From a virus: DNA of 21,523 nt. Below are positions 7,601-20,692 of the stretch, piece after piece. The DNA is taken from positions 1 through 21,523 of IMG/VR virus record IMGVR_UViG_3300045107_000608. One strand, given 5' to 3'. The notes below the pieces were generated by a model. It had not been told where the DNA came from. It searched no databases and was given only the letters and a program-made list of their open reading frames with translations. Position 1 is the stretch's first letter, and each line of letters begins with the position of its first letter. The position numbers and the translations under genes were made by a program.

Positions 7601-7688
7601 TCCGCGTCGATTCGGAGACCTGCTGATACACACCGGACGCGAGGTCGGTCGCTTTGACGACGATGTCGACCTGGCGGTCAGCAGCCAT
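4632..7688 (-). CDS. Tail tape measure protein
   Basis: 1018 residues, the longest complete gene in the window, placed directly after the tail assembly chaperone. This is the diagnostic position of the tape measure, which sets tail length and is ejected with the DNA. The N-terminus (VDIVVKATDLASGVYQQVSE) is typical of phage tape measures. A Gly/Ala-rich hydrophobic segment lies at about residues 105-135 and a longer Gly/Ala hydrophobic region at about 570-645; such segments are thought to insert into the host membrane. Between and after them are Gln/Glu/Lys-rich helical stretches. The C-terminus includes a MAAGGFRRVTRPTLFLVGEDGPE motif, a common closing region of this family. Start ATG 7688 lies two bases after the frameshifted chaperone stop. 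The 1018-residue length would predict a tail of roughly 150 nm if the usual 1.5 angstrom per residue rule holds. Confidence 0.95.
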   Translation of the reverse strand: MAADRQVDIVVKATDLASGVYQQVSESTRKFAGDVQAAGGSIQGATQQTSAFRKALDDLKPSTDNAGASFTDLKTTLTDVWEHPTEKLGQFAQALSSDLTSAAGGASSSLGGMAVAAGAAAAGLAVAGGVALELAERAAKIGGELNDMSEKTGISVAALSNLKYAVDVAGGSLEQVSNGIFMFQRNLGEGSDKVVQGLGRIGLSIEQIEAMSPDQQFLAIAEGIQHVEDPSQRAAAAMELFGKQGREMLPLLMKPLQELTEQSRELGFTWSNEEAKAAEEFEMQTRALGLQLSKMGVDMGRDLLPAVHDFVSLLQWAISHKDDIHNAFSLFGVTGVKGPAEDLQETSRQIGLQLEEMVGKVKMPTLNLGAAAGASKDDLALAWLQLDASTKQYRDDVRRTEEEQRKWNELLAEFATVGSSAMATIEQLDGAVVQGVQYYLQQGVAVEKIAKLYGLTTEQVHAVSVEMKFEQSVIDETTKIMGAHLAQVGLVAARYGDLHKALEDISSDPLHAYALALDVTAGKTESVEEMSQKYRDALHQVRAELEAVAGKQFGFGKAIDATIESVPHIIQSALTGGGGMNGAVQAIGSNLGANLGKSIVGAIPGSMTSLFGETAGAALDIALPGIGGAIGSLVGPLLGKLFSIGGPSQEELQGRDVERQFEQSFGGFNQMMDAVGKAYAATGRSAQQAQADVAGLLAAEKQGGDAAKAWIDKINGAFTEQQQDAEDLKTAIDKYHFSIEELGPAMKKQALDDQAKTILNDWRLLAGSGIDVATVDKHMAQSIQEYLNLAKKTGEEVPEAMKPIIQSLIDNGDLLDENGNKITDMGQLGITWSETMTQGFDRVVDKLQQVIDSLNKAGHVIDDIPDHKDIDVRTHYSSDGSPGPRSDAGDGGEPEKMAAGGFRRVTRPTLFLVGEDGPEDAWFSGSGRTMAQRLGVGSPAAPIAAPSGSLVDASTTRDRTAQPKGDVTFNFSLPVQAQIFDPTAMDRLVRDYILPALHELWRQSGGARRDTRVSLGVS

Positions 7689-7690
7689 CG

Positions 7691-8565
7691 TTACGCGTTC
7701 CCGGTATGGCCGTAGCCATGCCGCTCGGCGAGCGCTTCAGCGCGAATCTGATCCGCCACGCGGCGCGCGATCGACATGCCTGTCATGACCCGTGCGTCCT
7801 GGTCGCCGAGGCCGCCCGCGGCCGGCAGCGCGAACGGCGTCCAGCCGCCCTCCTCGAGGCGATGCGTCATGAACATCCGATCCACGGCTTCATCGGCCTC
7901 GGGGTCGAGCTCGCGCACCGGGCAGGTGTGGAGGATGATTTCCCCGCCGTGCCAGACGACGTGCTTCTGCTTCACGCCGTCACAGCCTCGCTTTCCACAG
8001 AGGCCGAGTTCGACACACTGTCCGCAGTCGGCACCGGTGCGTCCCCATTCGCTGTCGGGCTGGGCGCGTCCGAGGAAGGTGCGGAATCGAAGAGCGAGTT
8101 CAATTTTTTTTTGAGACCCGCGGGGTACTTGTTCTGGATGAACACCTGCGCCAGCGCCGCCCGGATCACGCTGTCGCGTGCGGCATACTCCGCGAGGAAA
8201 TCGAGCCCGGACTCGATCGGGTTCCCGTCCTCGCCCGTGTGGGCGCCGGCCGGCAGGGAGATGTACTTGGCGAAGGTCTCCTTCACGAACGCGCTGGCGA
8301 AGGCATCGTCGGCGGCTTCCTGCTTCTCGCGGGCCGCGCGCGCCTCGGCGGTCTCCTCGAGGGAGAGTCTCGCGAGCGTGTCCTCGGCGGCCTCCTCGCC
8401 CTCTTTCGCGCGTTTGACGCGCAATTGCTCGCGCTGCCGGATCTGATTCAACCGGGTCCAGCCGCGCATGAAGGCAAAGTTGTCGTCCACGGTGAATCGC
8501 GCGATCTGCAGCGGGACCCGCTGGCCGTCGATCAGGATGTGCGTCGGGTAGAACTTGCCGGACAT
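7691..8565 (-). CDS. Tail assembly chaperone, -1 frameshift fusion (gpG-T like)
   Basis: This is the longer product made if ribosomes starting at ATG 8565 slip back one base on the run of nine A at 8112-8104. The first about 154 residues equal the unshifted protein. The sequence then continues IELALRFRTF and runs about 137 residues to TAA at 7691, giving about 291 residues. The extension contains a Cys cluster (DCGQCVELGLCGKRGC, then HTCPV) that could bind metal. It ends two bases before the tape measure start. In lambda and most long-tailed phages, the gpG and gpG-T products coat the tape measure before tube assembly. Evidence is the position, the slippery site and coding-like sequence in the -1 frame beyond it. 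Open sequence of that frame upstream of the slip point is a shadow of the 0 frame. Confidence 0.85.
7972..8565 (-). CDS. Tail assembly chaperone, unshifted product (gpG like)
   Basis: 197-residue protein from ATG 8565 (MSGKFYPTHILID) to TGA 7972. The start was chosen because a strong ribosome binding site (GGAGAGGA) lies about 7 bases upstream and because sequence further upstream is intergenic and holds a hairpin. The middle is charged and helical (KRAKEGEEAAEDTLARLSLEETAEARAAR in pieces, about residues 50-90). After the KKK at residues 152-154 encoded by nine A, the tail is Ser/Ala/Pro-rich and looks like low-complexity sequence, as expected for a terminated chaperone. Expected to be the abundant partner of the frameshifted form and to bind the tape measure. 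Confidence 0.85.
   Translation of the reverse strand: MSGKFYPTHILIDGQRVPLQIARFTVDDNFAFMRGWTRLNQIRQREQLRVKRAKEGEEAAEDTLARLSLEETAEARAAREKQEAADDAFASAFVKETFAKYISLPAGAHTGEDGNPIESGLDFLAEYAARDSVIRAALAQVFIQNKYPAGLKKKLNSLFDSAPSSDAPSPTANGDAPVPTADSVSNSASVESEAVTA
8104..8112 (-). promoter_or_regulatory. Programmed -1 frameshift slippery site (A9)
   Basis: On the minus strand the sequence reads CTC AAA AAA AAA TTG in the 0 frame. It contains A AAA AAA heptamers that allow both tRNA-Lys to re-pair after a -1 slip. Past it the 0 frame runs only 43 more codons, whereas the -1 frame stays open and coding-like for about 137 codons, up to the tape measure. Position near the 3' part of the chaperone gene is the classical one. 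Confidence 0.85.
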
Positions 8566-8642
8566 GTGGGTTTCCTCTCCGCGCGCCTGGCGCGCTCGTG
8601 TGGCTTGCCGCGACCCTGAGAGAGAAACCCGGGCGAGAGGAG

Positions 8643-8680
8643 CGGGCGCCCGGCGGTCTGAATACCACCGACGGCGCCCG
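8643..8680 (-). terminator. Strong GC-rich hairpin between tail tube and chaperone genes
   Basis: CGGGCGCC (8643-8650) is an exact reverse complement of GGCGCCCG (8673-8680). An inner CGGCGGT / ACCACCG pairing (one wobble, two-base bulge) leaves a six-base loop. It lies in the 148-base gap after the tail tube stop. No U-tract follows on the minus strand, so it may be a partial terminator, an mRNA-stabilising structure or a processing site that lowers expression of the chaperone and later genes relative to the tube. No other gene is visible in this gap. Confidence 0.5.
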
Positions 8681-8713
8681 TTATGCCGGGTCGACTGCGT
8701 GAACCGAACCGAA

Positions 8714-9853
8714 TCAGATCCCGAGAACGATCTCGTCGTTCCCGGACGTTTCCTTCGCGACGCCCGTGAACGACCACTTGATGGCGCCGTCGCCATCGGG
8801 CGTGTCCGGGACATCGAACTCCACGCGCGGGCAATAGATCCCGATGACCTTGCCCTCGGTCGTGCCGACCTGCACAAAGAGCGTGTTGTCGGAAGCGGTC
8901 TCGGCCTGGGCGATGACCGACGTGTCGTCCGATACGTACGCCTCGAGCGAGAAGCTCACCTTCCGGCGGCCGTTCCGGTAGAAGCCCTGGGACCGGTCGG
9001 TCCCGAAGATGTCGTTCATCAAGGCTTCCATGTTCTCGATGTCGAACTGGCCCTTCGTGACCTGGTAGGCGGTGCCGTTGAACAGCAGCGTACCGATGAT
9101 GCCGGTGACCGGCGACCCAACCGTGGTGAAGCTCCCGGGCACGCTCTGCGCCGGCCGGAGCCGCTCTTTCGCTGGCCCCTGCGCCCGGAACTTCGCCTCG
9201 TCGTTGCCGTCGAACTGCACGGTCAGCTTGTTGATCACCCACCCGTGCATCTCGACGGTGAGGTTCGGCAGGTAGTGCGCGATCGTGAGCCCGGACGGCA
9301 GCTCGTTCGCGAGCTGGTACGAGCACATGGACTTCACCGTGTCGGCCACACTCGGCGCGCCCGGCAGTGCAGGCGCCCATGTCGCCGCGGCGCCCGCCAG
9401 CGCGGTCAGTTTCCGCGCGTAGACGCCAGCGTTCGGTCCGCTCGCGATCGAGATGGAGATCATCTCGCCGACGACGAACCCCGTACCCGCGGTCAGCGTG
9501 GCGCCCGTCGTGGTCGGACTGGAGGCGATCGTCGTGCTGCCGGCACCGATGACCTCGGTCCCGAACGCGTTCTTCAGGATGGCCGCGGCCTCGGGCGCGG
9601 TCTGAATCGTGCCCGACGGTTGGAGGTAGGCCTCCAAGTCGACGCTCCCGTCGATGTGCCGCGAGAACCGGTCGCGGAGGCCCGGCGTGCCGCGTTTCTC
9701 GAGGGAGTCGGAGCGGTTCAGGCTCGCGTGCGTCTTGATGTTCAGATGCCGCAGCGCATTCGTGGCGCTGAACGTCGGGGCCGTGCCGTACGTCGACTCG
9801 GCTTTTGCGTAGACCTTCCCGAGCCGGCCGATCTGGTAGACAGGTGTGGGCAT
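8714..9853 (-). CDS. Major tail tube protein (gpV-like)
   Basis: 379 residues, ATG 9853, with a GGAG ribosome binding site inside the end of the upstream gene about 9 bases away. The N-terminus (MPTPVYQIGRLGKVYAKAES) and the segment around residues 45-70 (RGTPGLRDRFSRHIDGSVDLE) fit phage tail tube proteins, which polymerise as hexameric rings into the tail shaft. An Ala/Gly/Thr-rich insertion at about residues 100-150 (TAGTGFVVGEMISIS) may be an extra surface domain. The C-terminal part (KVSFSLEAYVSD, CPRVEFDVPD, KWSFTGVA) is beta-rich. Placement immediately before the chaperone/tape measure pair is diagnostic. The strong hairpin downstream would favour high expression of this gene relative to the next ones. 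Confidence 0.85.
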   Translation of the reverse strand: MPTPVYQIGRLGKVYAKAESTYGTAPTFSATNALRHLNIKTHASLNRSDSLEKRGTPGLRDRFSRHIDGSVDLEAYLQPSGTIQTAPEAAAILKNAFGTEVIGAGSTTIASSPTTTGATLTAGTGFVVGEMISISIASGPNAGVYARKLTALAGAAATWAPALPGAPSVADTVKSMCSYQLANELPSGLTIAHYLPNLTVEMHGWVINKLTVQFDGNDEAKFRAQGPAKERLRPAQSVPGSFTTVGSPVTGIIGTLLFNGTAYQVTKGQFDIENMEALMNDIFGTDRSQGFYRNGRRKVSFSLEAYVSDDTSVIAQAETASDNTLFVQVGTTEGKVIGIYCPRVEFDVPDTPDGDGAIKWSFTGVAKETSGNDEIVLGI

Positions 9854-9856
9854 GGA

Positions 9857-10063
9857 CTACAGCTCCTGCTCCTCGCTGACGGCCGGCAACTCCGGCGCCT
9901 CGTCGAGCGGCGTGAATTTCACGATGTAATCGCCGAGCGCGTCGGCGAAGGTTCCGGACCCGAGCGGCTCGTCTAGGTCGACGACGTCGCCCTTCCGCAG
10001 CTGCCGCGGCGCGCCGTGGCCTTCGATCGTGAGTTCGTTGAGTTCACAGCGCGCGCGTCGCAT
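9857..10063 (-). CDS. Small acidic protein of unknown function in tail cluster
   Basis: 68 residues from ATG 10063 (MRRARCELNELTIEG) to TAG 9857. An AGAGGG ribosome binding site lies about 8 bases upstream, and the start follows the stop of the tail terminator gene by 13 bases. The frame stays open further upstream, but that part overlaps the terminator gene. It is short, probably beta-rich in the middle (RQLRKGDVVDLDEPLGSGT) with an acidic C-terminus (EAPELPAVSEEQEL). I do not recognise the family. Its conserved-looking position between the U-like and V-like genes suggests a minor tail or tail-assembly role, and a small SH3-like fold is conceivable. Confidence 0.65.
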   Translation of the reverse strand: MRRARCELNELTIEGHGAPRQLRKGDVVDLDEPLGSGTFADALGDYIVKFTPLDEAPELPAVSEEQEL

Positions 10064-10076
10064 ACAAGGCCCTCTG

Positions 10077-10547
10077 CTATGGCTGACCGAACGCGCGATG
10101 AATGCGCATCTCGGTTTTGACCCTTGCCCACACCGTCGACCCATCGGTCGTCGCGTCGAGCGTCCGCTCGGTGATGCGCGTATCCGCGGCGAGGCCGCCA
10201 CGTTGCACATCGACCGCGATCGCCCGCTCCACGTCGGCGCAGCCTCTGAAGAACGTCTGCAACCGAACCGGATCGCTGCTCTCAGCCGCATCGCCGACCC
10301 AATGAATCAGGACCGGCATCACCAGCAGGAGTTGCTTCGCTGGCGAGTACTCCCAACTCTCTGGCTGCGGCTCCAGCACGATGAAGGGCCGCAACCGCCC
10401 GGCACCGGCCAACGCCTCGTCATCGACGTTGACGTCCAACCTCACCGCAGCCGGGTCGACGTCGAAGTAATAGCCGCCGCTCACCGCAATCTGCTGGAGC
10501 GCCTGCTGCAGGTTCAGCAGGATCTGGTATTCATTCGGCTCCGGCAT
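10077..10547 (-). CDS. Tail terminator / completion protein (gpU-like)
   Basis: 156 residues, ATG 10547, overlapping the end of the Z-like gene by 17 bases. The sequence (MPEPNEYQILLNLQQALQQI at the N-terminus, then RPFIVLEPQPESWEYSPAKQ near the middle) has the alpha/beta pattern of tail terminator proteins, which cap the growing tube and contact the head connector. It sits exactly where lambda U lies, between Z-like and tube genes. Similarity is judged from order and size (lambda U is 131 residues) rather than a sharp motif. A DUF3168-type tail completion protein is the main alternative name and would have the same role. Confidence 0.65.
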   Translation of the reverse strand: MPEPNEYQILLNLQQALQQIAVSGGYYFDVDPAAVRLDVNVDDEALAGAGRLRPFIVLEPQPESWEYSPAKQLLLVMPVLIHWVGDAAESSDPVRLQTFFRGCADVERAIAVDVQRGGLAADTRITERTLDATTDGSTVWARVKTEMRIHRAFGQP

Positions 10548-11133
10548 TCGGCGGTGCGCTCGCTTCGCCGGCGGCGTACGCCAGCTCGTGTCCGAAGTTC
10601 TTCTGGAACATCTCGATGACCCGCGCGACGGCCTCCTGCTGGTGCTTGATAAATACGTGCCCCAGCGACGGCCCTTTCAACTCACGAATCGGCAACTGCG
10701 ACCGATACGGTTTCGGCCCACGACGGTTCGCGCCAGGCACGCGCACGAACACGCCCCGGTGTCCCGTCGGCATGGTCGCGATGAATGCGTTCTCGACGCG
10801 GTTGCGGCTGCCGCCCAGCCGATACGTCACGCCACGGCCTTTGCCCCGCGACGGCTCAGGTCCTCGCGCGCCGAAGTCGATCAAGGGGATGCGTTTCAGG
10901 CTCGCGGCCAGGCGCGCCTCCGGATTGCTGAGGGTCGCCTCTCGATAGACGAGCGCGTCGCGCACCGGCGCAGATTTCAACCCGGTGTCTTGTGCGATGG
11001 CCCGGACCATGACGGTGCGTCCAGAAGCCAGCCCGCGATTCATGGCGCGCACAGTAGCGCGTGGAACGGCCTTGCCCTCGTTCTGGAGGCTCACGACCAC
11101 GCCCTGTGTGCCCTGGACGGATACAGTGACCAT
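10531..11133 (-). CDS. Minor tail protein, lambda gpZ-like
   Basis: 200 residues from ATG 11133 (MVTVSVQGTQGVVVSLQNEG). An in-frame start at 11184 exists, but it would extend into the previous gene, so I prefer 11133, 10 bases after the upstream TGA. Features recalling the GpZ family are the N-terminal RATVRAMNRGLASGRTVMVR segment followed by IAQDTGLKSAPVRDAL (about residues 24-60), the Arg/Gly-rich middle, the GVFVRVPGANRRG strand (about 121-133) and LPIRELKGPSLGHVF (about 142-156). GpZ-type proteins help tails join heads. Order between FII-like and U-like genes is as in lambda. Confidence 0.75.
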   Translation of the reverse strand: MVTVSVQGTQGVVVSLQNEGKAVPRATVRAMNRGLASGRTVMVRAIAQDTGLKSAPVRDALVYREATLSNPEARLAASLKRIPLIDFGARGPEPSRGKGRGVTYRLGGSRNRVENAFIATMPTGHRGVFVRVPGANRRGPKPYRSQLPIRELKGPSLGHVFIKHQQEAVARVIEMFQKNFGHELAYAAGEASAPPNAGAE

Positions 11134-11143
11134 CGGTGGCTGC

Positions 11144-11473
11144 TCACTCCGGGACGACGATCGCGCGCACGCAATCGGGCTCAACCAACTCCAGCCCGTC
11201 GACGCGCCAGGTCCGGTTCGCCTGACCCTGCATCTCGGGCGCGACGACTAGCGTGTTCCGGACGATTTCCGGCACGGCGCCGTCGCGCGGGAACACAATC
11301 ACGCGCCGCGGTTCGCGCCGCTGGAAGTCCGTACCGATGGGTGTGGTTTCCGCGAGGGGCGTGACCCAGAAGCCGGTGGTCGTCACCGCCTGGGCGCCTG
11401 GCTCGGGCCGTGTGACGGTCGCCGGCACTCCGAACGCAGCGAGTGCCGGCGAGAACGGAACACGGCCATCCAT
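11144..11473 (-). CDS. Head-tail connector, lambda FII-like
   Basis: 109 residues, ATG 11473, starting 16 bases after the capsid stop, with GGAG about 9 bases upstream. The protein is mostly beta (TTTGFWVTPLAETTPIGTD, RRVIVFPRDG, TWRVDGLELVEPDCVRAIVV). Size and place between the major capsid and Z-like genes match lambda FII (117 residues), which forms the head side of the head-tail junction. No lambda FI equivalent (DNA packaging accessory) is present between capsid and this gene. Assignment is by synteny, size and predicted fold, with no decisive motif. Confidence 0.65.
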   Translation of the reverse strand: MDGRVPFSPALAAFGVPATVTRPEPGAQAVTTTGFWVTPLAETTPIGTDFQRREPRRVIVFPRDGAVPEIVRNTLVVAPEMQGQANRTWRVDGLELVEPDCVRAIVVPE

Positions 11474-11489
11474 CGGCCCGAACTCCGGC

Positions 11490-12479
11490 TTACGACTTGG
11501 TGACCTGCACGACGCCGCGCGGGCGCAGGCACAGCGCGAGCGGATTGCTCTGCGTGTGCACCTTCACCCAGCGATTCAGATCGTCATCGTTCACGATCTT
11601 CGCGTAGAGCGGCAGACCGAGCGTGTTCACCGCCTCGATGTAATCGGCCGGCGCGAACGACGTCTGGAAGATCGACGTCCCGGTCGGCACCACGAACGCC
11701 TGCGCATCCGGGAAGAAGCCGACGGATCCGACCTTGGCGCGCGGGTTCGTCCAGGTGATGCCGCCGTATTCGAAGCCCTTGCGGATGTCGCCGCGGAGCA
11801 GCGCGCTCTCCTGATACTTCAGGGATTCGACCACGGAGCTGTGCTGGATCAGCGTGTCGAAGAAGCTGTCACCGCAGAACGCGATGTAGCCGGTGATCGG
11901 CTCGGCGCCGAGCTCCGTCTCGATCAGTCGCTGGATGGCGACCGCCTCGTTGCGCACGTTCGTGTTCGTGTTCGACAGCGCGATGTCGTGCGTCTGCTGC
12001 GACACGCCGAACTCGGTGAACAGGTTGTACACGACCGTCGAGCCGTCAGAGTCGAGGATCTGGCCCTGGATAGCACCGGCGCGGTGGTACTCGAGGGTGA
12101 CCTCGTGCATCTGGCGCAGGTACCCGAGCCGCTCGTCGATGACGGCCTGGACCGACTCCATCTCCGACTCCGACCCGAAGGCGCGTACGCCCTGCACTTC
12201 GTCGGCGTACACCTTCGAGTCTCGCTCGAGGTGCGGCACCAGGAAGCTGCGTGCCGTGCGGAGCTTCCGACCAACCGTGTCGCCGGGGCCGCCGCGCGGG
12301 CTGGTCGGGATGAGCGTCAGCTGGCCGTCCTTTTCCTCGACGACCGCCGTTTTGTCGCGGATGCCCCTCTCGCGGAAGAGCCCCAGCGAGCCGATGAGGC
12401 CCGGCTTGTAAGGCGCCTTGAGCACCGAGGCGGTCAGCGAGACCGTATTGAACGCGTCGGACTTGAAGACATCGAGCAT
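11490..12479 (-). CDS. Major capsid protein (gpE-like)
   Basis: 329 residues, ATG 12479, with an AGGAG ribosome binding site about 8 bases upstream. Sequence and length fit the lambda E family of HK97-fold capsid proteins (lambda E is 341 residues). Recognisable parts are MLDVFKSDAFNTVSLTASVL at the N-terminus, the EERGIRDKT-like E-loop region (about 30-50), the RTARSFLVPHLERDSKVYAD stretch, the GYLRQMHEVTLEYHRAGAI helix (about 118-136), and the C-terminal ADYIEAVNTLGLPLYAK and LCLRPRGVVQVTKS segments. It follows the decoration gene by 33 bases. It forms the icosahedral shell and should be the most abundant protein of the particle. Confidence 0.9.
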   Translation of the reverse strand: MLDVFKSDAFNTVSLTASVLKAPYKPGLIGSLGLFRERGIRDKTAVVEEKDGQLTLIPTSPRGGPGDTVGRKLRTARSFLVPHLERDSKVYADEVQGVRAFGSESEMESVQAVIDERLGYLRQMHEVTLEYHRAGAIQGQILDSDGSTVVYNLFTEFGVSQQTHDIALSNTNTNVRNEAVAIQRLIETELGAEPITGYIAFCGDSFFDTLIQHSSVVESLKYQESALLRGDIRKGFEYGGITWTNPRAKVGSVGFFPDAQAFVVPTGTSIFQTSFAPADYIEAVNTLGLPLYAKIVNDDDLNRWVKVHTQSNPLALCLRPRGVVQVTKS

Positions 12480-12512
12480 GGTTGCGTCTCCTACCTCTCG
12501 TGTGCGCCGGCG

Positions 12513-13442
12513 TTACGACCGGGCGATGATGCCGAGCTTCGCGAGGGCGTCGATGGCGACGTTCTTCTGCGTCGTCGTGGCCCCGCTGAACCACACCAGG
12601 TCGGCGCTGCGGACCTCGGCGTCGCGCGCGATGACGGTGCCCGCCTTGTCGGCCGAGGACGCGTCGACATCGCCGTATAGGATGCCGGCCACCCGCTGGC
12701 CACCATCGGTGTTCGACGGGTCGTACTCCTGATATTTGTAGGTGCCACCCGTCACGCTGATGGTGAACGTGTCGCCCGAGACAAAATCGGTGGCGCCGTC
12801 GTTGATGGTGAACTTGATCTGGTTGTCGAACAGGGTGCCGACGACCGCGGTGCCAACGACGATGCCGCTGGGGTCATGCACGATGAACGTGCCGAGGTTG
12901 GTGCCGGGTTCGACGCAGACGATCTTGTAGTCGCCACGCTGGGCGCCAAGGTTCGTGCCGACCGCCTGGCCGGTGACGGTGCCGTTACCGGTGTTCCCGC
13001 TGGCGGCGGCCGCGGCGGCGACCGTCGGGCTGACGAGGCGTCGGCCGACCACGTGACCGGCTTTCAGGTTTTCACCCGACAACACCGTCACGCTTTCGCG
13101 CGAGCGCCAGCTGCCGTCAGCGGCCTCCGACAGCAGGAACTGCGCCGTGTGGCCCGTCTCCGTCAGCACGCCGAAGATAACCGGCGCGGCGAGGACCGTT
13201 CGAACATCGAAGACCAAGGCGGCGATGATGAACAGCGCGACCGCGGCTGCAGGCAACCAGACCTCTCGGCGGTTCAGACCGAGGCGGCGGCTCAGCGACA
13301 CGCCGGCGGCACGCCATTTCGTCATGCGCTCATGGCCGAGGCCTCGAGCATCGACGCGAATCACTTCGAGTGCAGGCATGTGGAGCAAGCCGGCGAAGAA
13401 GGCCAGGAGCGCCGGCAGCACGGAGAACGGGATCGTGTTCAT
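12513..13442 (-). CDS. Head decoration protein (gpD-like) with unusual membrane-type N-terminus
   Basis: 309 residues from ATG 13442, with AAGGAG about 10 bases upstream and overlapping the protease stop region (7-base gap). Residues 92-309 look like phage head decoration protein: TETGHTAQFLLSEA at 94-107, VTVLSGENLKAGHVVGR at 118-134, then an inserted beta domain (about 140-232), and a C-terminal GILYGDVDASSADKAGTVIA and GATTTQKNVAIDALAKLGII segment. Residues 1-91 do not belong to that family. They carry two hydrophobic stretches (about 5-22 and 62-90) separated by a basic linker. No stop separates the two parts, and codon use in the N-terminal part is coding-like. A separate decoration start at GTG 13169 (residue 92) is possible but has no good ribosome binding site. 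Decoration proteins stabilise the expanded capsid. Confidence 0.8.
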   Translation of the reverse strand: MNTIPFSVLPALLAFFAGLLHMPALEVIRVDARGLGHERMTKWRAAGVSLSRRLGLNRREVWLPAAAVALFIIAALVFDVRTVLAAPVIFGVLTETGHTAQFLLSEAADGSWRSRESVTVLSGENLKAGHVVGRRLVSPTVAAAAAASGNTGNGTVTGQAVGTNLGAQRGDYKIVCVEPGTNLGTFIVHDPSGIVVGTAVVGTLFDNQIKFTINDGATDFVSGDTFTISVTGGTYKYQEYDPSNTDGGQRVAGILYGDVDASSADKAGTVIARDAEVRSADLVWFSGATTTQKNVAIDALAKLGIIARS

Positions 13443-13449
13443 GGAACGG

Positions 13450-14913
13450 TTACTCCTTCTTCGCGAGTTTGTTGCGTTCGGCGTACACGGCCGCGACGCT
13501 GATCTTCGGTTTCGCGCGCACGCCGCGGTCGGGGTCGAGGCCGCCATCAATCTCAGCGCGATCTAGCCTGGCCGTGATGGTGGTCAGATGTTCGCGGATC
13601 GACGCGACCGGCATGTTCGACCCGACGTAGCCGGCCGCGAGCTCCGGCACCTTCGCCGTCGCGCACAGCGCCGTGATCTCGCGCTCGCGTGCGGTCGCCT
13701 GGTCCCGCTCGGCGACCTTGGCGGCGATGCGCGCCTGAACGTCAGCGATCGGCAGCTTCGCTGCCACTAGCTCGCGCGCGACGGCGGTGCTGAGCCCGGC
13801 CGACTCGACGGCAGCAAGCACTTCCGCCGCATCGGCGGCAGCCGGTGGCGCCGCCGGCGCTTTTGCGAAAGCGGCAATCTGGTTTCGGTACCGGTCGGGC
13901 ACTTCGAGCGCACCGAGGGCCCGCGGCTCGAGGAGCGCTGCCGCGCGCAGACCCTCGACCTTCTCGGTCGCGAACCCGTTGGCGATCGCCTCGTCGGCGT
14001 TCATCCAGGTTGTGGCCGCCATCAGCGCGCGGAGCTGCTCCGCGTCGAGCGGCGAGTGCCACTGGTACGTGGCGACGATCGCATCGCGCACGCGGTCGAG
14101 GACGTCGGCCACGTCGCGGAGGTCGCTGGCGTTTCCGTACGCCAACGTCAGCGGGTCGTGCACCATCACGATCGCGTTGTCGGCGACCTGCACCGTATCT
14201 CCGGCGGCGGCGACAATCGTTGCCGCGCTGGCGCACAAGCCCTCAATCATCGCGGTGACGGAGGCCTGATGCTGCCGCAGCGCATTCGCGATTGCGATCG
14301 CGTCGAACACGTCGCCGCCAGGGCTGTTGATGTGCAGGCGAATCGTCTGCACGCTCTTCGGCAGCGCGTTCAGGTCGTCGATGAAGGCCTTCGCTGTGAC
14401 GCCTTCTGACCAGAACGACTCGCCGATGTCGTCGTAGACGTACACGTCCGCAACGGTCTGGTCATCAGCGCTGGCGTCGATCCGGTACCACTGTCGTGGC
14501 TGCCCGTTGACGACCGCAACCTTCCGGCTCTGCTTCGCTCGCGGCTTGAACTGCAGCACGTTGTCCGTCGAACGTTTGTCCATCGCGTTCAGCAGGCGGC
14601 CGGCCGCGTCGTAGATCTCCGTCTCGTTCTGCTGGCTGGCGCGGGTGCGAATGGCACGGAGCGCGGAGCGATAGAGCTTGCCGTCCTTGCCGAACGGATA
14701 GCTCCAGGCGGCCTTGGTCTTCGAATCCTCGCTGTCGTCGTGCCCGAGATGCCAGGACGCGTAGGCATCCCAGTTCGGCGGATCGCCGAGAATCTTGTCG
14801 CCGTCCTCGGCGGAGAAGCTCCAGTCGGAGGTCTCGTCGACCTTGCCGGCGTCGATCAGGCTCTTGGCATGCGATTCACCAGCGCGGTAGAGCGTGAGGG
14901 CCACGGACCGCAC
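13450..14913 (-). CDS. Prohead (head maturation) protease, ClpP/S49 fold, with scaffold-like C-terminus
   Basis: 487 residues, GTG start at 14913 (a second GTG three codons on is an alternative; neither has a strong ribosome binding site, and a small GCCCG/CGGGC hairpin at 14934-14950 lies just upstream). Residues 1-112 form an extra N-terminal domain (WSFSAEDGDKILGDPPNWD, YPFGKDGKLYRSALRAIR) seen in some phage head proteases. Residues about 155-320 are the protease: INSPGGDVFDAIAIANAL at 195-212, likely catalytic Ser229 in GLCASAAT, His252 in MVHDP, and WMNADEAIANGF near 303-314. Residues about 330-470 are Ala-rich and helical like a scaffold, as in the lambda C/Nu3 pair where scaffold is made from the same frame. 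It should process the portal and scaffold during head maturation. Confidence 0.9.
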   Translation of the reverse strand: MRSVALTLYRAGESHAKSLIDAGKVDETSDWSFSAEDGDKILGDPPNWDAYASWHLGHDDSEDSKTKAAWSYPFGKDGKLYRSALRAIRTRASQQNETEIYDAAGRLLNAMDKRSTDNVLQFKPRAKQSRKVAVVNGQPRQWYRIDASADDQTVADVYVYDDIGESFWSEGVTAKAFIDDLNALPKSVQTIRLHINSPGGDVFDAIAIANALRQHQASVTAMIEGLCASAATIVAAAGDTVQVADNAIVMVHDPLTLAYGNASDLRDVADVLDRVRDAIVATYQWHSPLDAEQLRALMAATTWMNADEAIANGFATEKVEGLRAAALLEPRALGALEVPDRYRNQIAAFAKAPAAPPAAADAAEVLAAVESAGLSTAVARELVAAKLPIADVQARIAAKVAERDQATAREREITALCATAKVPELAAGYVGSNMPVASIREHLTTITARLDRAEIDGGLDPDRGVRAKPKISVAAVYAERNKLAKKE

Positions 14914-14958
14914 TGTCGCACGAGCACCGGCTCGCCCGTATCGTTCGGGCTACGGAAA

Positions 14959-16500
14959 TTACTTCGCTGGCGGCGGCTTCGGTCCGGCCGGGACGGCTGG
15001 ATTCGGCTGGGAGTTCGCCGTGCCGAGCATCTTGCGACCATCCGAATCGTAGGACAGGCCCAGCGCGTCGGCGCGCGCATTGTCGGCCGCCTGTTCGACG
15101 TCGATCGCCTCGGCGTCTTCGCCCTGTTCGCTGACCACGCTGCTGCGCGATTCGAACCCAGCGCGGATCGCTTCTCGGTTCGCCTGGACGTCCTGCACCG
15201 GGTTGATGTAGGGCCACCCTTGCGGGACCCACTTCGCGCGTGCAACCGGGTCTGGGTCCGTCGCATAGCTCGCCGGGATCGGGGCCGCGCCGAAGAGGAA
15301 CACACGGTCCAGCCAGGCGCGCCACACCGGGCGACACAGCTGGAAGGCCACGATCTGGTGCTGCCACGCCATGATGCGACGCCGGAACTGGTTGAGCAGC
15401 ACGCGCACGGTCCGATCATTCACGCGCGAGAGGTCCCCGGTGAGCACCTCGTACGGCACACCGGTCGCGGCGGCCACGTGCGAGAGCTGCTGACGCGTGA
15501 AATCCGGATAGGCGCCGTCGATGGCCGGCGGATCGGAGAATTTCACGTCCTCGCCGGGCGCGAGCTCCTGGAAGATGCCAGGCTCAAGGCTCAGCAACTG
15601 GTTCCCGTCATCGTCGTGCGCGACCGGAAGGCCGGTCATCGGGTCCGTGACGTCCGTGTCGGCCGAGTTCTGTCGCGTCACAAATCCGACGAACAGGTTC
15701 GCGAGCTGCTGCCGCAACAGCGTCGCGTCGTCGAATTTATCGAGCTCGCGGAGTTTGATGAGCGCCTGCGTCAAGTGCGGCACGCCCCGGAGCTGACCCG
15801 GGCGGAGCGGCTGATACAGGTGGATGACCCCGTCGGCCGGCACGCGTCGCAGGTCAGACGGATCGAAGTCGACCAGGTCGCCCGGGCGGCTCGGATGGAA
15901 GTAGTACGCGACGCGCCGGCCGATGGCGTCGAATTCGATGCCCGCCCGCACGCGGTTCCCATTCGGCAGCGTCGTGTTCCACGTGTGCGGGCACAGTTCG
16001 GGCTCGATGATTTGCACCTGCAGCGGCACCGAGAGGCCGTCGGACGGTGTGCGCGGCCGCAGCCGCACGAACACTTCACCGCCCTCGAGCCAGGCGCGCA
16101 CGGCCAGCGCTTGCTGCCCGTACCAGTCGAACAAGCCGTCGGCATCGCTCTCGTCGGTCCACAGGAGCCACAGCGCCTGCAGTCGCTTCCGGAGCGCCTG
16201 GTCGTCGGCAAGAGAAAGTGGCTTGATGCCCGTCCCGATGATGTTCGAGACCAGCTCGTCGATCGCGCCCTTCGCGTACCCGTCGTTTCGGACGGCGGCG
16301 CGCGAGCGGTCGCGGAGCAGCTGTAGCCCGTAGAGGATGGACGGGTTTGGCGACAGCGACGGCGGCCGCCAGCCGACCGCGCGGCGGCCCATCGACGTGC
16401 TCTCGTACGCGAGCCCGGCCCCCGAGTTGACGATGCGAGAGCGCCGCGGAGCCGGCGTGTCGACGGCCAGCGAGAGACGGAGCTGCTCAGTCGCCGCCAT
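14959..16500 (-). CDS. Portal protein (gpB family)
   Basis: 513 residues, ATG 16500, overlapping the gpW-like stop by one base (ATGA). The sequence fits the lambda B portal family (lambda B is 533 residues): LLRDRSRAAVRNDGYAKGAI and NIIGTGIKP near residues 60-95, the GEVFVRLRPR strand (about 139-148), VIHLYQPLRPGQLRGVPHL (about 225-243), and the SHVAAATGVPYEVLTGDLSR segment (about 337-356). The C-terminal about 40 residues are Pro-rich and probably disordered. It forms the 12-mer ring at one vertex, through which DNA is packaged by the terminase and ejected into the tail. A 45-base gap separates it from the protease. Confidence 0.93.
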   Translation of the reverse strand: MAATEQLRLSLAVDTPAPRRSRIVNSGAGLAYESTSMGRRAVGWRPPSLSPNPSILYGLQLLRDRSRAAVRNDGYAKGAIDELVSNIIGTGIKPLSLADDQALRKRLQALWLLWTDESDADGLFDWYGQQALAVRAWLEGGEVFVRLRPRTPSDGLSVPLQVQIIEPELCPHTWNTTLPNGNRVRAGIEFDAIGRRVAYYFHPSRPGDLVDFDPSDLRRVPADGVIHLYQPLRPGQLRGVPHLTQALIKLRELDKFDDATLLRQQLANLFVGFVTRQNSADTDVTDPMTGLPVAHDDDGNQLLSLEPGIFQELAPGEDVKFSDPPAIDGAYPDFTRQQLSHVAAATGVPYEVLTGDLSRVNDRTVRVLLNQFRRRIMAWQHQIVAFQLCRPVWRAWLDRVFLFGAAPIPASYATDPDPVARAKWVPQGWPYINPVQDVQANREAIRAGFESRSSVVSEQGEDAEAIDVEQAADNARADALGLSYDSDGRKMLGTANSQPNPAVPAGPKPPPAK

Positions 16501-16718
16501 CAGAACCCTTTGCCCGTCATCACGCCGAACGACTGCCGAGAACGACCGTTGAGCAGCGAGTCGAGAATGCGCTGGAAATACGCGATTTTCTGTGTGATTT
16601 CAGCGGCGGAGCTGTACGTGACGCTGCGGTCAGCGAACTGAACGACGTGCTCCGGGTTCGCGAGCCCGGCTTCGAGGGCGGCGATGTTGGCTCGGACGTC
16701 GGCTTCCGTGTACGCCAT
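16500..16718 (-). CDS. Head completion protein, gpW-like
   Basis: 72 residues from ATG 16718. The length (lambda W is 68) and the layout, an N-terminal helix (EADVRANIAALEAGLANPE), a short beta hairpin (VVQFADRSVTYSSA) and a second helix (AEITQKIAYFQRILDSLL), match the gpW fold. Its stop overlaps the portal start. gpW seals the packaged head at the portal so that the FII connector can bind. The gene directly upstream of a B-type portal is W in lambda, which supports the call. The 55-base gap to the upstream regulator holds no other gene. Confidence 0.85.
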   Translation of the reverse strand: MAYTEADVRANIAALEAGLANPEHVVQFADRSVTYSSAAEITQKIAYFQRILDSLLNGRSRQSFGVMTGKGF

Positions 16719-16773
16719 CGGGTCTCATCGTCGCGCACGAGCGCTGCCGCGAAGATCGGCGGGCTACAGAAAA

Positions 16774-16995
16774 TCAGCGATCCGGCGGCGCGTAGCGACT
16801 CAACACGCGGCGCAGCACCTGCCTGACGGGCACGCGCGACCGAAGAGCCGATCGGCAATACGCGTCGTACACGTCCTCGGTCAGCCGCACGTTGATGACG
16901 AGCGTGCGCGCGGACCTCGGACGACCACGCCCGACGCGCGGCGGTCCGTCCGGCGCCAGGGAGCCGTCGATCTCGAAGCTCTCGCCCGCACTCAT
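16774..16995 (-). CDS. Small ribbon-helix-helix DNA-binding protein
   Basis: 73 residues from ATG 16995. After a Gly/Pro/Arg-rich N-terminal arm (about 10-30) comes RTLVINVRLTEDVYDAYCRS, a beta strand leading into a helix, then a second helix SRVPVRQVLRRVLSRYA (about 53-69). This is the size and order of a ribbon-helix-helix (CopG/Arc-type) repressor, which binds DNA as a dimer through the strand. No such gene is in the lambda structural operon. A 16-base near-palindrome about 80 bases upstream is a candidate operator, so it may control its own transcript or the downstream head genes. The start has a weak ribosome binding site. Family assignment is from pattern only. Confidence 0.6.
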   Translation of the reverse strand: MSAGESFEIDGSLAPDGPPRVGRGRPRSARTLVINVRLTEDVYDAYCRSALRSRVPVRQVLRRVLSRYAPPDR

Positions 16996-17076
16996 CGGGT
17001 GATGCGCATTCGTCTGTATCGTGTTGTGGAGGAGCCGCTGCTGAGTCTACCGGGAATAGTTCAGCTCTGGAGAAAT

Positions 17077-17092
17077 GCACAACATGTAGTGC
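17077..17092. promoter_or_regulatory. 16-bp near-palindrome, candidate operator of the RHH regulator
   Basis: GCACAACATGTAGTGC pairs in seven of eight positions about its centre. It lies in the 102-base gap between the zinc-ribbon gene stop (17098) and the regulator start (16995). On the minus strand its TTGTGC end could serve as a poor -35 box, with TATTCC 18 bases on as a poor -10. This makes a repressor site overlapping a promoter plausible, but the promoter itself is weakly supported. Confidence 0.45.
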
Positions 17093-17097
17093 TTCGG

Positions 17098-17274
17098 CTA
17101 CTTCCGGAGCACGATCTTCCGCGGATTGATGAGGCTCTCGTAGGTCGTCCACCGGTGGTTGCACGCTCGGCACGCGTGACGTCGACGACGGTATCCCTTC
17201 CCGCGCCGGCTATTGACGATGCGCCCGCGCTGCCCGCATCGGCACCGATCCGGGTCGCGCAGCTCGACCATCAT
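17098..17274 (-). CDS. NrdR-like zinc-ribbon mini-protein
   Basis: 58 residues from ATG 17274, whose ATG overlaps the terminase stop (ATGATGG), so translation is probably coupled. It contains C11-x-C13 and C35-x2-C38 around an Arg-rich segment (NSRRGKGYRRRRHAC), followed by NHRWTTYESL. The order CxC, S-R, G-x-R-R-R-R, CxxC, R-x-T-T-Y-E closely follows the N-terminal zinc ribbon of the NrdR regulator of ribonucleotide reductase. The ATP-cone domain of NrdR is absent, so only the nucleic-acid-binding part remains. An mRNA- or DNA-binding role in the packaging region is possible. Function is not known. Confidence 0.7.
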   Translation of the reverse strand: MMVELRDPDRCRCGQRGRIVNSRRGKGYRRRRHACRACNHRWTTYESLINPRKIVLRK

Positions 17275-19181
17275 CGCGAGAGATAGCTGCTCCGCACGAC
17301 ACGGCGCTGGGGCGCCGGGCCGCGTGGCGCCGCAGGTGTGGCCGGCGGCTGACCTGTCGAGGGCGGCGGCTGTGGAGGCGGTGTCGCCTCGAGCGCCGCC
17401 TTCATCACCGCGAGCTTCGGATTCAGCAGCCGCAACGCGCTGATCGCGTACACGGCCATGTCGAGCGCTTCGTTGCGCGGCCGGATCTTCTGCCAAACCT
17501 GCTGCGGGATCCCCTTCGACCACTTCAGCACGAGCCGCTCGCTGGTGAGCTGCGCCGCGAGCTCCTCGTCGCACCAGTCCGCGTGCGGCAGGTGGATGTA
17601 GCCCGGGCCCTTCTCTGTCAGCGCCAGGCGGGAGATCAGCAGCGCCTTCGCAGCGTCGACGCCGATCGTGTACAGCGGCACCTGGCGCTCCTGCCGTCCC
17701 CAGCGCCTCGGCGACGGCGACGACACGATCGGCCGTTGCCCGTCGCGCCCGATGATCGCGTAGACGCGACGAGCGGCCTTTCGCTCCGCGTAGTCGTACA
17801 CGAGCGTCGTGCGGTGACCGCCGGAGTCGATGCACGCCGCGTGAATCAGCAACGTATGCCCGCTCGCGTGCCGGTACGGCGTGTCGAGTAGCTCATCGAG
17901 CATGCGCCATGGGTCCGGCTGTGACGTGTCGCCGGGCAGCGTCTGTCGATCGACCAGCCACGACTCGTCGCCTGGGCCCCAGCCGATGACGAGCGCCTCG
18001 AGTCGGTCGTCCTGGACGTCGACGCCCATCGTCAGGCAGCACGCGCCGGCCGGCACGTCGATGTCGGGCGGATACGCTTCACGCCGCAGCAGCAGCGCGT
18101 GCGGCTCGACGCCTTCGCCGGCTTCGTGCGCGACCGGCTCGCCGAGCGTCGTGTTCTGCCACGTGTGCATCTCGCTCTTATCGCCGGTCTTCTGCTTCTC
18201 ACGAGCCGCGAGGAAGTTGCTGACGATTTCGCTGAGCGAGGACAGCGGCGAGTACGCTTCCCAGAGGTGGAACGAAATGATCGATTTGTCGCGGCGGCCT
18301 GGGTTCGTGGCGCGCCACTCGCCGCGCGACAGGATCGCGACGCGCTCGGCGTCCGTGATGCCGTGGTCGCATTCCGGGCAGTGCAGCCGAGCTGTCAGCG
18401 GATCGGCGTCGGTCCAGCGCACGTTCTTCCACTCGTACGCGTGCATGTGGCCGCACTCCGGACACGGCACGTGGTACCGCCGCTGATCACCTCGCTGGAA
18501 CCAGGTGTGAATCGGGGCGCCCTCGAGCGTCGGCGACGACAGCATCAGGATCCGCCGGCGACGCAGGTACGCCTGCGTGCGCTTCATCGCGACGCGGAGC
18601 GTCGACCCTTCGCCCGGCAGCTCCGGCGGGTACCGGTCCACCTCGTCGAGCACGAGCAGCCGCACGGACCGCGAAGCGAGCGACGCCGCGGAGTTGGCGC
18701 CGCCGATTGAAATGGCGCCGCCGCGGAACGTCTTCGACAGCGTCGTGTTCGTCGCGTTCTTCTGTCGCTTCTTCCCGACCGACGAGCTGAGGATCGGCGA
18801 GGCCTCGATCACCGGCTCGAGGCGATTGCGCGAGAAGTCGATCGCCATCGGATCGACGGTCGGCTCGACGACGAGAATCGGACACGGGTCGTGCGCGATG
18901 TGGTACGCCACGACGTTGATCGCGCACGCAGTCTTACCCCACTGCGACGAACCCATTACGACGACGGTCTGAACGCCTGGCTCGTGGAAAGCGTCGAGGA
19001 TGCCGCGCTGGTAGGGCGCGAACGCCGTCTGCCAATGCGTGCCGGCTAACGGCCCGCTAGTCACGATGATGTGCTCGTCGGAAAACTCGGACACCTTCAG
19101 CTCCGGCGGCGGGGCGAACCCGCCGCGCACCTTCGCGATGAGCGCGCGTGCCGACGACGACGCATCCGTCTCGACGTTCAT
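17271..19181 (-). CDS. terL: Terminase large subunit (GpA family)
   Basis: 636 residues, ATG 19181, overlapping the small-subunit stop (ATGA). The ATPase has a Walker A-type loop GSSQWGKT at residues 77-84 and a Walker B LLVLDE at 175-180. A zinc-binding pair follows (C240-x2-C243 and C268-x2-C271), as in lambda A. The nuclease domain begins near GVDVQDDR at 386-393, with likely metal ligand Asp388 and a second acidic residue in CIDSGGHRT (Asp452). The C-terminal 40 residues are Pro/Gln-rich and probably unstructured. The enzyme cuts concatemeric DNA (cos-type cutting is expected for this family) and pumps it into the prohead through the portal. Family and role are clear, while the cos site itself was not identified. 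Confidence 0.95.
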   Translation of the reverse strand: MNVETDASSSARALIAKVRGGFAPPPELKVSEFSDEHIIVTSGPLAGTHWQTAFAPYQRGILDAFHEPGVQTVVVMGSSQWGKTACAINVVAYHIAHDPCPILVVEPTVDPMAIDFSRNRLEPVIEASPILSSSVGKKRQKNATNTTLSKTFRGGAISIGGANSAASLASRSVRLLVLDEVDRYPPELPGEGSTLRVAMKRTQAYLRRRRILMLSSPTLEGAPIHTWFQRGDQRRYHVPCPECGHMHAYEWKNVRWTDADPLTARLHCPECDHGITDAERVAILSRGEWRATNPGRRDKSIISFHLWEAYSPLSSLSEIVSNFLAAREKQKTGDKSEMHTWQNTTLGEPVAHEAGEGVEPHALLLRREAYPPDIDVPAGACCLTMGVDVQDDRLEALVIGWGPGDESWLVDRQTLPGDTSQPDPWRMLDELLDTPYRHASGHTLLIHAACIDSGGHRTTLVYDYAERKAARRVYAIIGRDGQRPIVSSPSPRRWGRQERQVPLYTIGVDAAKALLISRLALTEKGPGYIHLPHADWCDEELAAQLTSERLVLKWSKGIPQQVWQKIRPRNEALDMAVYAISALRLLNPKLAVMKAALEATPPPQPPPSTGQPPATPAAPRGPAPQRRVVRSSYLSR

Positions 19182-19774
19182 CCCGCTGGCGTCGGCGCTG
19201 TAGTGTCCGGCTTTAGCCGGACCTCCGGGATTGGTCGGTCAGGGCTCGCGAGCTCGCGCAAAACGTCATGGACCGCGTTCTGGAGCAGCTCCTCGACGCC
19301 CGCGATACCTTCGGTCATCGCGACGCGGCAGACTTGCTCGGCAAGCGTGGTCGGCATCGCGAGCAGCAGGGTCCGCACGGCCGCCACTTCAGCTGCCCAG
19401 GACTTTTCAACCTCGTCGCGCGGCAGCAGGTCGCGCCGGCGGATCTCGAGCGCCTGCTCCGCCAGGAGGGCCTGAGCCCGCTCGCGTCTGGCGCGCTCGC
19501 GCAGCAGGTCCGTCGCCTCGCCCTTCTGTGCTGCGGCATTGCGCGCGGCGAGCCATTGCTGGGCCGCTGCCGGGTCATACAGCGACGGCCGTCCGCCGCG
19601 GCCGCGATCCGCGACCGGCAGCCCCTGCTCCAGCCATTTCGCGATGGTCCGCGGGTCGCACCCGAGTTTCTCCGCGAGCTCGGTACGCGTCACAAGCCCG
19701 CGCTTACCGGCCGTGCGGCTGCGGGTCGCCCGCTTACCCGTGCGTCGTTTGGTGACCTTCGATGCCCGTTTCAA
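19178..19774 (-). CDS. terS: Terminase small subunit (Nu1-like)
   Basis: 198 residues. The start is TTG 19774, since an in-frame TAA lies a few codons upstream and no ATG is available near the N-terminus; GTG at residue 28 is an alternative. A very basic N-terminal tail precedes a winged helix-turn-helix (LVTRTELAEKLGCDPRTIAKW, about 27-47) with a RGRGGRPSLYD wing. A long helical region rich in Arg/Ala/Glu (about 75-135) likely drives oligomerisation. It binds cos DNA and recruits the large subunit, with which it overlaps by four bases. The last 13 residues (VRLKPDTTAPTPA) come from a palindromic repeat element at 19205-19222 and look like an acquired tail. Confidence 0.85.
   Translation of the reverse strand: MKRASKVTKRRTGKRATRSRTAGKRGLVTRTELAEKLGCDPRTIAKWLEQGLPVADRGRGGRPSLYDPAAAQQWLAARNAAAQKGEATDLLRERARRERAQALLAEQALEIRRRDLLPRDEVEKSWAAEVAAVRTLLLAMPTTLAEQVCRVAMTEGIAGVEELLQNAVHDVLRELASPDRPIPEVRLKPDTTAPTPAG
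19205..19222. repeat. 18-bp palindromic repeat inside terminase small subunit gene
   Basis: GTCCGGCTTTAGCCGGAC is a near-perfect inverted repeat (GTCCGGCT / AGCCGGAC). A second copy with one base changed lies at 20018-20035. On the minus strand it encodes V-R-L-K-P-D, followed here by T-T. I recall this element and its peptide as highly repeated in Acidobacteriota genomes, which I could not check here. Confidence 0.7.
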
Positions 19775-19898
19775 CGATGCCCAATGCCCTTAAATGTCGT
19801 GCAAAAACCTGCGGGATTTTTGCGCCCCCGTTTGCCCGCTTTCGCTGCGACTCGCCAGGGACCCCCGATTTCAACGACTCGCGTCGCTCGCCCATCAT
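19734..19898 (-). CDS. Possible small protein upstream of terminase
   Basis: A 54-codon frame starting at ATG 19898, which overlaps the stop of the upstream zinc-binding gene (ATGATGG, the same arrangement as elsewhere in this operon), and ending at TAA 19734 inside the terminase small-subunit start. The product is basic (MMGERRESLKSGVPGESQRK) and matches no family I know. Its third-codon GC is lower than in neighbours, so coding status is doubtful. Its main support is the stop/start overlap and the need to fill the gap. Alternatively this 120-base gap is a packaging or regulatory region. Confidence 0.3.
   Translation of the reverse strand: MMGERRESLKSGVPGESQRKRANGGAKIPQVFARHLRALGIVETGIEGHQTTHG
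19801..19823. promoter_or_regulatory. AT-stem inverted repeat upstream of terminase small subunit
   Basis: GCAAAAA (19801-19807) and TTTTTGC (19817-19823) are exact inverted repeats around a nine-base GC-rich loop, close to the small terminase start. Flanking TTTCAACGA copies at 19769-19777 and 19869-19877 are exactly 100 bases apart. It could be a weak bidirectional terminator or part of a terminase binding (cosB-like) region. Confidence 0.3.
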
Positions 19899-20692
19899 TC
19901 CCGCACGTTCCCGTCGACGAACCGCGCCATCCGCGATTGGCCCATCTGCTCTTGCCTGGAGGTGACTTCGGTCTGCAGTTCATCGCGGCTCTTCCCGACC
20001 CACCAGCTCGGTTCTCGGTCCGGCTTCAGCCGGACACTCGATGGACGTTCGAGCGGCTGCCGAAGCGGCGCGCTTGTTTTTGGCTCGACTGACGGTATCG
20101 TCATGTCCGCGGGTCGATCGTGCTCGGCGTCGACCGAGAGCTGGCCGCTGTCAGTGACAGGCGCGGCGGCTACCGGTTCGCTCGGCTTCTGTTCAGGCGG
20201 AGACGGGCGCGGCTGGACGCATGCCTGGCGAGGCGCCGATACGGTGCGTAGATAGCACTTCCGAGAACAGAACCGGCCGGCGGATCCGGGTGCTGGAATG
20301 CACCGCTCGCCGCACCGCTCACAGATCCGCTGATGTTCCTCGAGGCGATCTGTAGCCACCCCGCGCCGGTGCGCGAGGTGCTCCACCGACCGATGCGGGC
20401 TCGTCGCCGTGCAGGTCGGGCACATGCGCTGCCTGGGACTGGTGCGGATGAACGGCTTGTCGCAGACCGGGCAGGGCCTCATCGGCACGTCAGGCGCCGG
20501 TGGCGCTGGCGTCGCTGGTTCGACCGGCACGGCTGAAGCCTTCACGTCATTCGGCACTGGCACGCCGAGCAGCTTTCGAATCTCGGCCAGGTCGCCATCG
20601 ATCTTGGCGAGCTCCGCCAGAAGCGCCTCTTTCCGCGCCATCGCGGATCGCACGGCTCCGAGCAGGTCGAGGGCTTCCATCTCTGCGCTCAT
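19895..20692 (-). CDS. Hypothetical coiled-coil protein with two Cys4 zinc motifs
   Basis: 265 residues from ATG 20692, which overlaps the upstream stop (ATGA). The open frame extends further upstream, but only within that neighbour. The N-terminus (about 1-45; MARKEALLAELAKIDGDLAE) is a coiled coil. After a Pro/Ala linker come CPVCDKPF...RMCPTC (about 75-95) and CERCGERC...FCSRKC (about 123-146), two likely zinc knuckles or ribbons. A Pro-rich region follows, with a VRLKPD segment encoded by a repeat element, then WWVGKSRDELQTEVTSRQE. The family is not recognised. Position just before the terminase and the Cys4 motifs suggest nucleic-acid binding, possibly linked to HNH-like or packaging functions, though no HNH catalytic motif is visible. 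Confidence 0.65.
   Translation of the reverse strand: MSAEMEALDLLGAVRSAMARKEALLAELAKIDGDLAEIRKLLGVPVPNDVKASAVPVEPATPAPPAPDVPMRPCPVCDKPFIRTSPRQRMCPTCTATSPHRSVEHLAHRRGVATDRLEEHQRICERCGERCIPAPGSAGRFCSRKCYLRTVSAPRQACVQPRPSPPEQKPSEPVAAAPVTDSGQLSVDAEHDRPADMTIPSVEPKTSAPLRQPLERPSSVRLKPDREPSWWVGKSRDELQTEVTSRQEQMGQSRMARFVDGNVRE
20018..20035. repeat. Second copy of the 18-bp palindromic repeat
   Basis: GTCCGGCTTCAGCCGGAC differs from the copy at 19205-19222 by one base in the loop. It encodes V-R-L-K-P-D in frame within the zinc-motif gene. Confidence 0.7.

Follow-up and report, generated by a model that had tools for sequence, protein, structure and literature searches.

Two palindromes matching an Acidobacteriota GTAG REP family are read in frame in a phage small terminase tail and a neighboring gene

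GTAG REPs that are linked to a RAYT transposase gene (REPtrons) have been described in Pseudomonas, Stenotrophomonas, and E. coli, where intragenic REPs are also on record (Di Nocera et al., 2013, PMC3733652), and in the published REPtron arrangement the RAYT gene is situated between inverted REP arrays (PMC3733652). For other REPs than the one considered here, TnpA-REP is known to bind its tagged hairpin when the DNA is single-stranded, cutting and joining beside it, and a change in the GTAG can abolish or redirect this cleavage (PMC8266576). The palindromic elements of Rickettsia (RPEs) are likewise read in frame in many unrelated protein genes; some are longer, and RPE-4 and RPE-6 are of the CGTC type without a known transposase (PMC3733652). 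Mobile elements in the P. fluorescens group coincide with REP deserts (PMC3390384).

The repeat that we describe resembles those of REPtrons in being a short palindrome beside a GTAG or GTGG tag, present in hundreds of copies, mainly intergenic, found in inverted arrays around a RAYT gene and occasionally inserted in frame within genes, but differs in that two copies reside in a phage genome. It shares in-frame reading with the RPEs, from which it differs by its GTAG tag, its RAYT linkage and its mostly intergenic location in the host. What has already been published is the REP type, the RAYTs, and in-frame genic insertion, whereas this host family and the occurrence in a phage add new instances; in the literature searched, we found no description of this stem sequence for the host class. 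Mobile elements are usually REP-free, and the phage copies provide a specific example of a host REP within phage coding sequence.

The DNA analyzed (hereafter the window) is a 21,523-nucleotide viral stretch, IMG/VR record IMGVR_UViG_3300045107_000608, whose relevant features are listed in Table 1. The original prediction of near-identical 18-bp palindromes 813 bases apart in two genes agrees with both the coordinates and a shuffle test. The two copies differ at a single position, in the loop, and their separation, start to start, is not that of a REPIN (two inverted REPs tens of bases apart). The stem-loop of copy 1 occupies 19205-19222 on the + strand and its GTAG tag, at 19201-19204, is on the strand opposite to that of the terminase genes. 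Neither side of copy 2 bears an intact GTAG or GTGG tag (CTCG-G to the left and CGAG-T on the - strand), and orienting it by the CGAG leaves its loop in the wrong orientation. As single-stranded DNA, each is predicted to form a hairpin with a 7-bp stem and a 4-nt loop (-8 kcal/mol, z -2.4 for copy 1; -8.6/-8.9 kcal/mol, z -3.6/-4.3 for copy 2).

Table 1. Positions of the two palindromes and of the genes around them in the window.
Feature	Position	Strand	Basis
Terminase large subunit, 636 aa, GpA ATPase and nuclease domains	17271..19181	-	Pfam PF05876, PF20454; PHROG 15
Terminase small subunit, 198 aa	19178..19774	-	PHROG 57 E 4e-33; Pfam Phage_Nu1 above cut-off
REP copy 1, (T)GTAG-T-GTCCGGCTTTAGCCGGAC-C	19200..19223	+	direct sequence
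Zinc-ribbon-like protein, 265 aa, two CxxC clusters	19895..20692	-	start 20692 by codon scoring
REP copy 2, GTCCGGCTTCAGCCGGAC	20018..20035	+	direct sequence

No further site with three or fewer mismatches to the 18-bp palindrome was present elsewhere in the window, and none of 100 dinucleotide shuffles reached four such matches. The two palindromes are real and far above chance. An origin as two independent GC-rich palindromes is exceedingly improbable: isolated exact matches do exist in unrelated phages (they make up most of the 43 viral matches described below), but here two copies lie within 0.9 kb, against 0.11 matches expected from the shuffles even with three mismatches allowed, and copy 1 matches the host form over all 24 nt, tag included.

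The contexts of the bacterial matches gave the repeat consensus GTAG-T-GTCCGGCTTYAGCCGGAC-C. Among the matches listed in a scan of one-genome-per-species bacterial contigs, most were from Acidobacteria. The whole genome of one of these bacteria, G001, has 383 copies in 3.6 Mb, and a second, G008, has 320, compared to none for a reversed-pattern control, which is the high copy number typical of the GTAG REP superfamily. The 18-mer is present in 22 of the 27 genomes of the G001 family, at up to 383 copies, and of the 193 genomes of one Acidobacteriota class 46 have the GTAG-tagged form, with as many as 357 copies in a genome and none of the reversed control. Counting the 18-mer, as had been proposed, thus located an enriched host group in this class; the accompanying statement that the repeat is abundant in Acidobacteriota is accurate for the family and class and too broad for the phylum, as only 10 of 247 genomes in a phylum-wide draw contained the 18-mer. 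Of the 42 copies in 379 kb of G001, 37 have the GTAG, and their loop, read on the tag strand, is TTCA, TTTA or TTGA. Copy 1 matches this tag and loop form exactly and its exact 24-mer, GTAGTGTCCGGCTTTAGCCGGACC, occurs eight times in the same 379 kb, so that copy 1, like the 37 G001 copies, bears the tag of the superfamily and copy 2 does not. We conclude that the palindromes of the window are very probably GTAG REPs of this host family.

Genes of the Pfam family Y1_Tnp (PF01797) were found in 17 of the 20 genomes tested. In at least four genomes (G001, G006, G008, and G011), a RAYT gene has inverted arrays of this REP on both sides, and the RAYT linkage characteristic of the GTAG REP superfamily is seen at loci L211, L214, L216, and L220. 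The G001 RAYT protein contains the motifs PDHVHLLI (HUH) and ARYVLENPLRAGL (Tyr), and we infer that this hairpin would be cleaved and transferred by its RAYT. The suggestion of a mobile palindrome was therefore right in kind, the repeat being a GTAG REP with a RAYT transposase flanked by it. There is no RAYT gene in the window itself.

To place the host copies relative to genes, we used a codon-based gene caller written for this analysis, by which 92% of the 379 kb of G001 is coding. Twenty-five of the 42 copies are wholly intergenic, 12 are inside genes and 5 are partly inside, an intergenic excess (P about 1e-17) consistent with the mainly intergenic location of the superfamily. Several of the 12 intragenic copies are at gene starts, where errors in the called start are possible. 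Clearly internal copies are in genes whose products we take, from our own reading of the sequences, to be Lnt, threonine synthase, and a serine hydrolase. In the threonine synthase (L241, 12307-14232) the repeat encodes GPASAGP in one loop and VVSGFSR in a second, and the GPASAGP loop differs in length and sequence among about 25 related genomes. In related genomes, the length of both REP-peptide loops varies greatly.

The frames of the repeat itself bear on how such copies are tolerated. The tag strand is open as VVSGFSRT, and also as SVRLQPD when the loop is TTCA, and the non-tag strand as VRLKPDT and GPAKAGHY, such that, of the six frames, three are open with either of the common loops, one more with TTCA, and two always contain a stop. 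The peptides VRLKPDTT, GPAKAGHY, and VVSGFSRT that occur in proteins of these bacteria are thereby explained as open frames of one repeat. It had been proposed that the palindrome inserts without breaking frame; both phage copies are indeed in frame, but survivorship is the better reading, as three to four of six frames are open and most host copies avoid genes. Similarly, both phage copies are read as VRLKPD on the - strand, as predicted, but the inference of a shared orientation does not follow, because the 18-bp sequence is palindromic and the peptide cannot show orientation; the orienting feature is the GTAG tag.

Copy 1 is in the C-terminal tail of the small terminase, as originally proposed, with VRLKPD at residues 185-190 of the PHROG 57 protein and the tail reading DRPIPE-VRLKPDTT-APTPAG up to its stop codon, which overlaps the large-subunit start (ATGA). 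A search of viral contigs with the small terminase as a direct query found no relative; the large terminase identified 37 viral loci (39-81% identical), 32 of them with a small terminase (31-62% identity). The comparison of related terminases that had been suggested as a check showed the peptide to be absent: none of the small-terminase relatives has VRLKPD in any frame, and no palindrome of this REP family was found in 278 kb of the 37 viral relatives. Neither outcome named as refuting the original proposal, a repeat enriched in no host group or the same peptide without the palindrome in all relatives, was observed, and the original interpretation was right in the main. The best comparable tails end in PVPGARVA and PLPSASAA, where the window has PIPE-VRLKPDTT-APTPAG, and removal of 24 nt from the latter gives the length of those tails to within one residue. 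The simplest reading of these alignments is an insertion of ~8 codons in a variable tail, a comparison for which the DNA alignment at the TerS/TerL junction is too divergent to show the insert borders and in which none of the relatives without the insert is over about 80% identical.

The position of copy 1, ~24 nt upstream of the large-subunit start and at the overlapping ATGA junction, raises the question of whether the repeats serve the phage, with the hairpin tuning large-terminase translation or mRNA decay or forming part of a pac site. The pac sites of several phages are in or near the small terminase gene, and in a second viral contig (L131, see below) a tagged REP likewise encodes VRLKPDT within the C-terminal tail specified by a small gene. 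Nevertheless, we consider such a role very unlikely: none of the 37 relatives has the palindrome there or elsewhere, the junction mRNA folds no better than its shuffles (z -0.73), and no terminator-like site was found at the repeats. No phage function is needed to explain the copies. Also highly doubtful is the broader proposal that RAYT-driven repeats regularly append VRLKPDTT tails to phage proteins and that this phage uses one, for example within its packaging site or as a small-terminase tail.

Copy 2 is also in frame and near the end of its gene, with VRLKPD at residues 220-225 of the zinc-ribbon-like protein. This protein has weak zinc-finger matches, and a longer reading of the gene weakly matches the HNH endonuclease family PHROG 1271 (E 5e-6). 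No relatives of the gene were found in viral contigs, and the comparison with relatives lacking the repeat covers copy 1. It is feasible that the copies came with host DNA by recombination (for example through imprecise excision, or gene exchange with another prophage or the chromosome) rather than by RAYT action, a reading that we hold to be somewhat unlikely. The missing tag of copy 2 is in keeping with it, as is the failure to find viral relatives of the surrounding gene, which may be part of a recent acquisition. At copy 1, however, the alignment of the small terminase with its relatives continues as far as the repeat, and the large-subunit gene starts ~24 nt beyond it, which limits any foreign DNA there to a few dozen bases.

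The probable host of the phage was indicated by prophages. G126, a genome of the same class, contains a prophage whose gene order matches that of the window from small terminase to tail genes (TerL 66%, portal 64%), and G353, also of this class, has a more distant syntenic prophage (portal 63%). A DNA search of window positions 1-19190 within the class yielded nothing beyond prophage-like matches and short GC-rich noise, and the named phages of INPHARED, whose TerL is at most about 43% identical, give no host. On the strength of the two syntenic prophages, a host in this Acidobacteriota class is likely, and the window would then represent an uncultured phage lineage tied to one Acidobacteriota class by a host signature as well as by syntenic prophages. 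The genomes of G126 and G353 have four and 142 tagged REPs, respectively, and the REP was not found in the syntenic prophage region of either, which argues that residence in such a host does not of itself fill a phage with REPs. The long association with the host that had been read into the repeats is not borne out, since no copies are present in same-lineage prophages from this class. The lack of copies in the phage relatives and same-class prophages is as expected for mobile elements, given the REP deserts noted above; in contrast, the window has two copies in 21.5 kb, or 0.93 per 10 kb, close to the 1.06 of the REP-rich G001. As mobile elements are typically REP-free, the presence of the REP in this phage is mildly unusual.

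The explanation that we favor, and consider probable, is that host REPs entered the phage, by a host RAYT or with host DNA, and that the open-frame copies in tolerant tails survived. A host RAYT (TnpA-REP, an HUH/Y1 single-strand nuclease) would multiply the ~24-nt GTAG hairpin units in the bacterial genome, and phage DNA that is replicating or lysogenic in such a host would receive copies either through recombination with host DNA or from the RAYT in trans, which would act on the phage DNA in single-stranded form. Insertions truncating phage genes would be lost, and those in dispensable, variable tails with an open frame (VRLKPDTT) would persist as near-neutral extensions of ~8 codons. As to the agent, we lean slightly toward the RAYT itself, rather than recombination, having placed the copies, although the link of copy 2 to a RAYT is weaker as it has no intact tag. 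Also counter to the favored explanation, G353 has its 142 tagged REPs and none in the related prophage, and the 18-mer is also abundant outside the class, with 140 copies in Povalibacter (G017), which is a separate occurrence.

Among 2.9 million viral contigs there were 43 matches to the 18-mer, most of them at a conserved CTCGAG-type coding site in an unrelated phage group. This site, GTCCGGCTCGAGCCGGAC (viral contigs L120-L162), is conserved in many unrelated phages with common flanks, and we rejected it as a REP; most matches to the tagged half-site in viral contigs were also rejected, being non-palindromic and due to chance. A GTAG-tagged copy is present in L131 (IMGVR_UViG_3300044709_000069, 3063-3085), where it contributes VRLKPDT to the tail at the C-terminus of a FitA-like ribbon-helix-helix protein of 78 aa; no relative of this protein without the tail was found. 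A GC-rich virus contig, L285 (IMGVR_UViG_3300005844_000085), has GTACGTAGTGTCCGGCTTTAGCCGGCC at about 1188-1213, a tagged REP with one mismatch.

Two further observations concern the bacterial genomes. The metagenome-assembled genomes G006 (L018, L021, etc.) and G007 (L019, etc.) carry the titles Bifidobacterium breve and Acidimicrobiia and contain this REP in abundance; both grouped inside the Acidobacteriota class of G001, and their titles therefore look wrong. Lastly, G001 has a sister stem variant, GTCCGCCT-NN-AGGCGGAC (loci L237-L256), with 25 copies in 379 kb, that would encode VRLKADTT.
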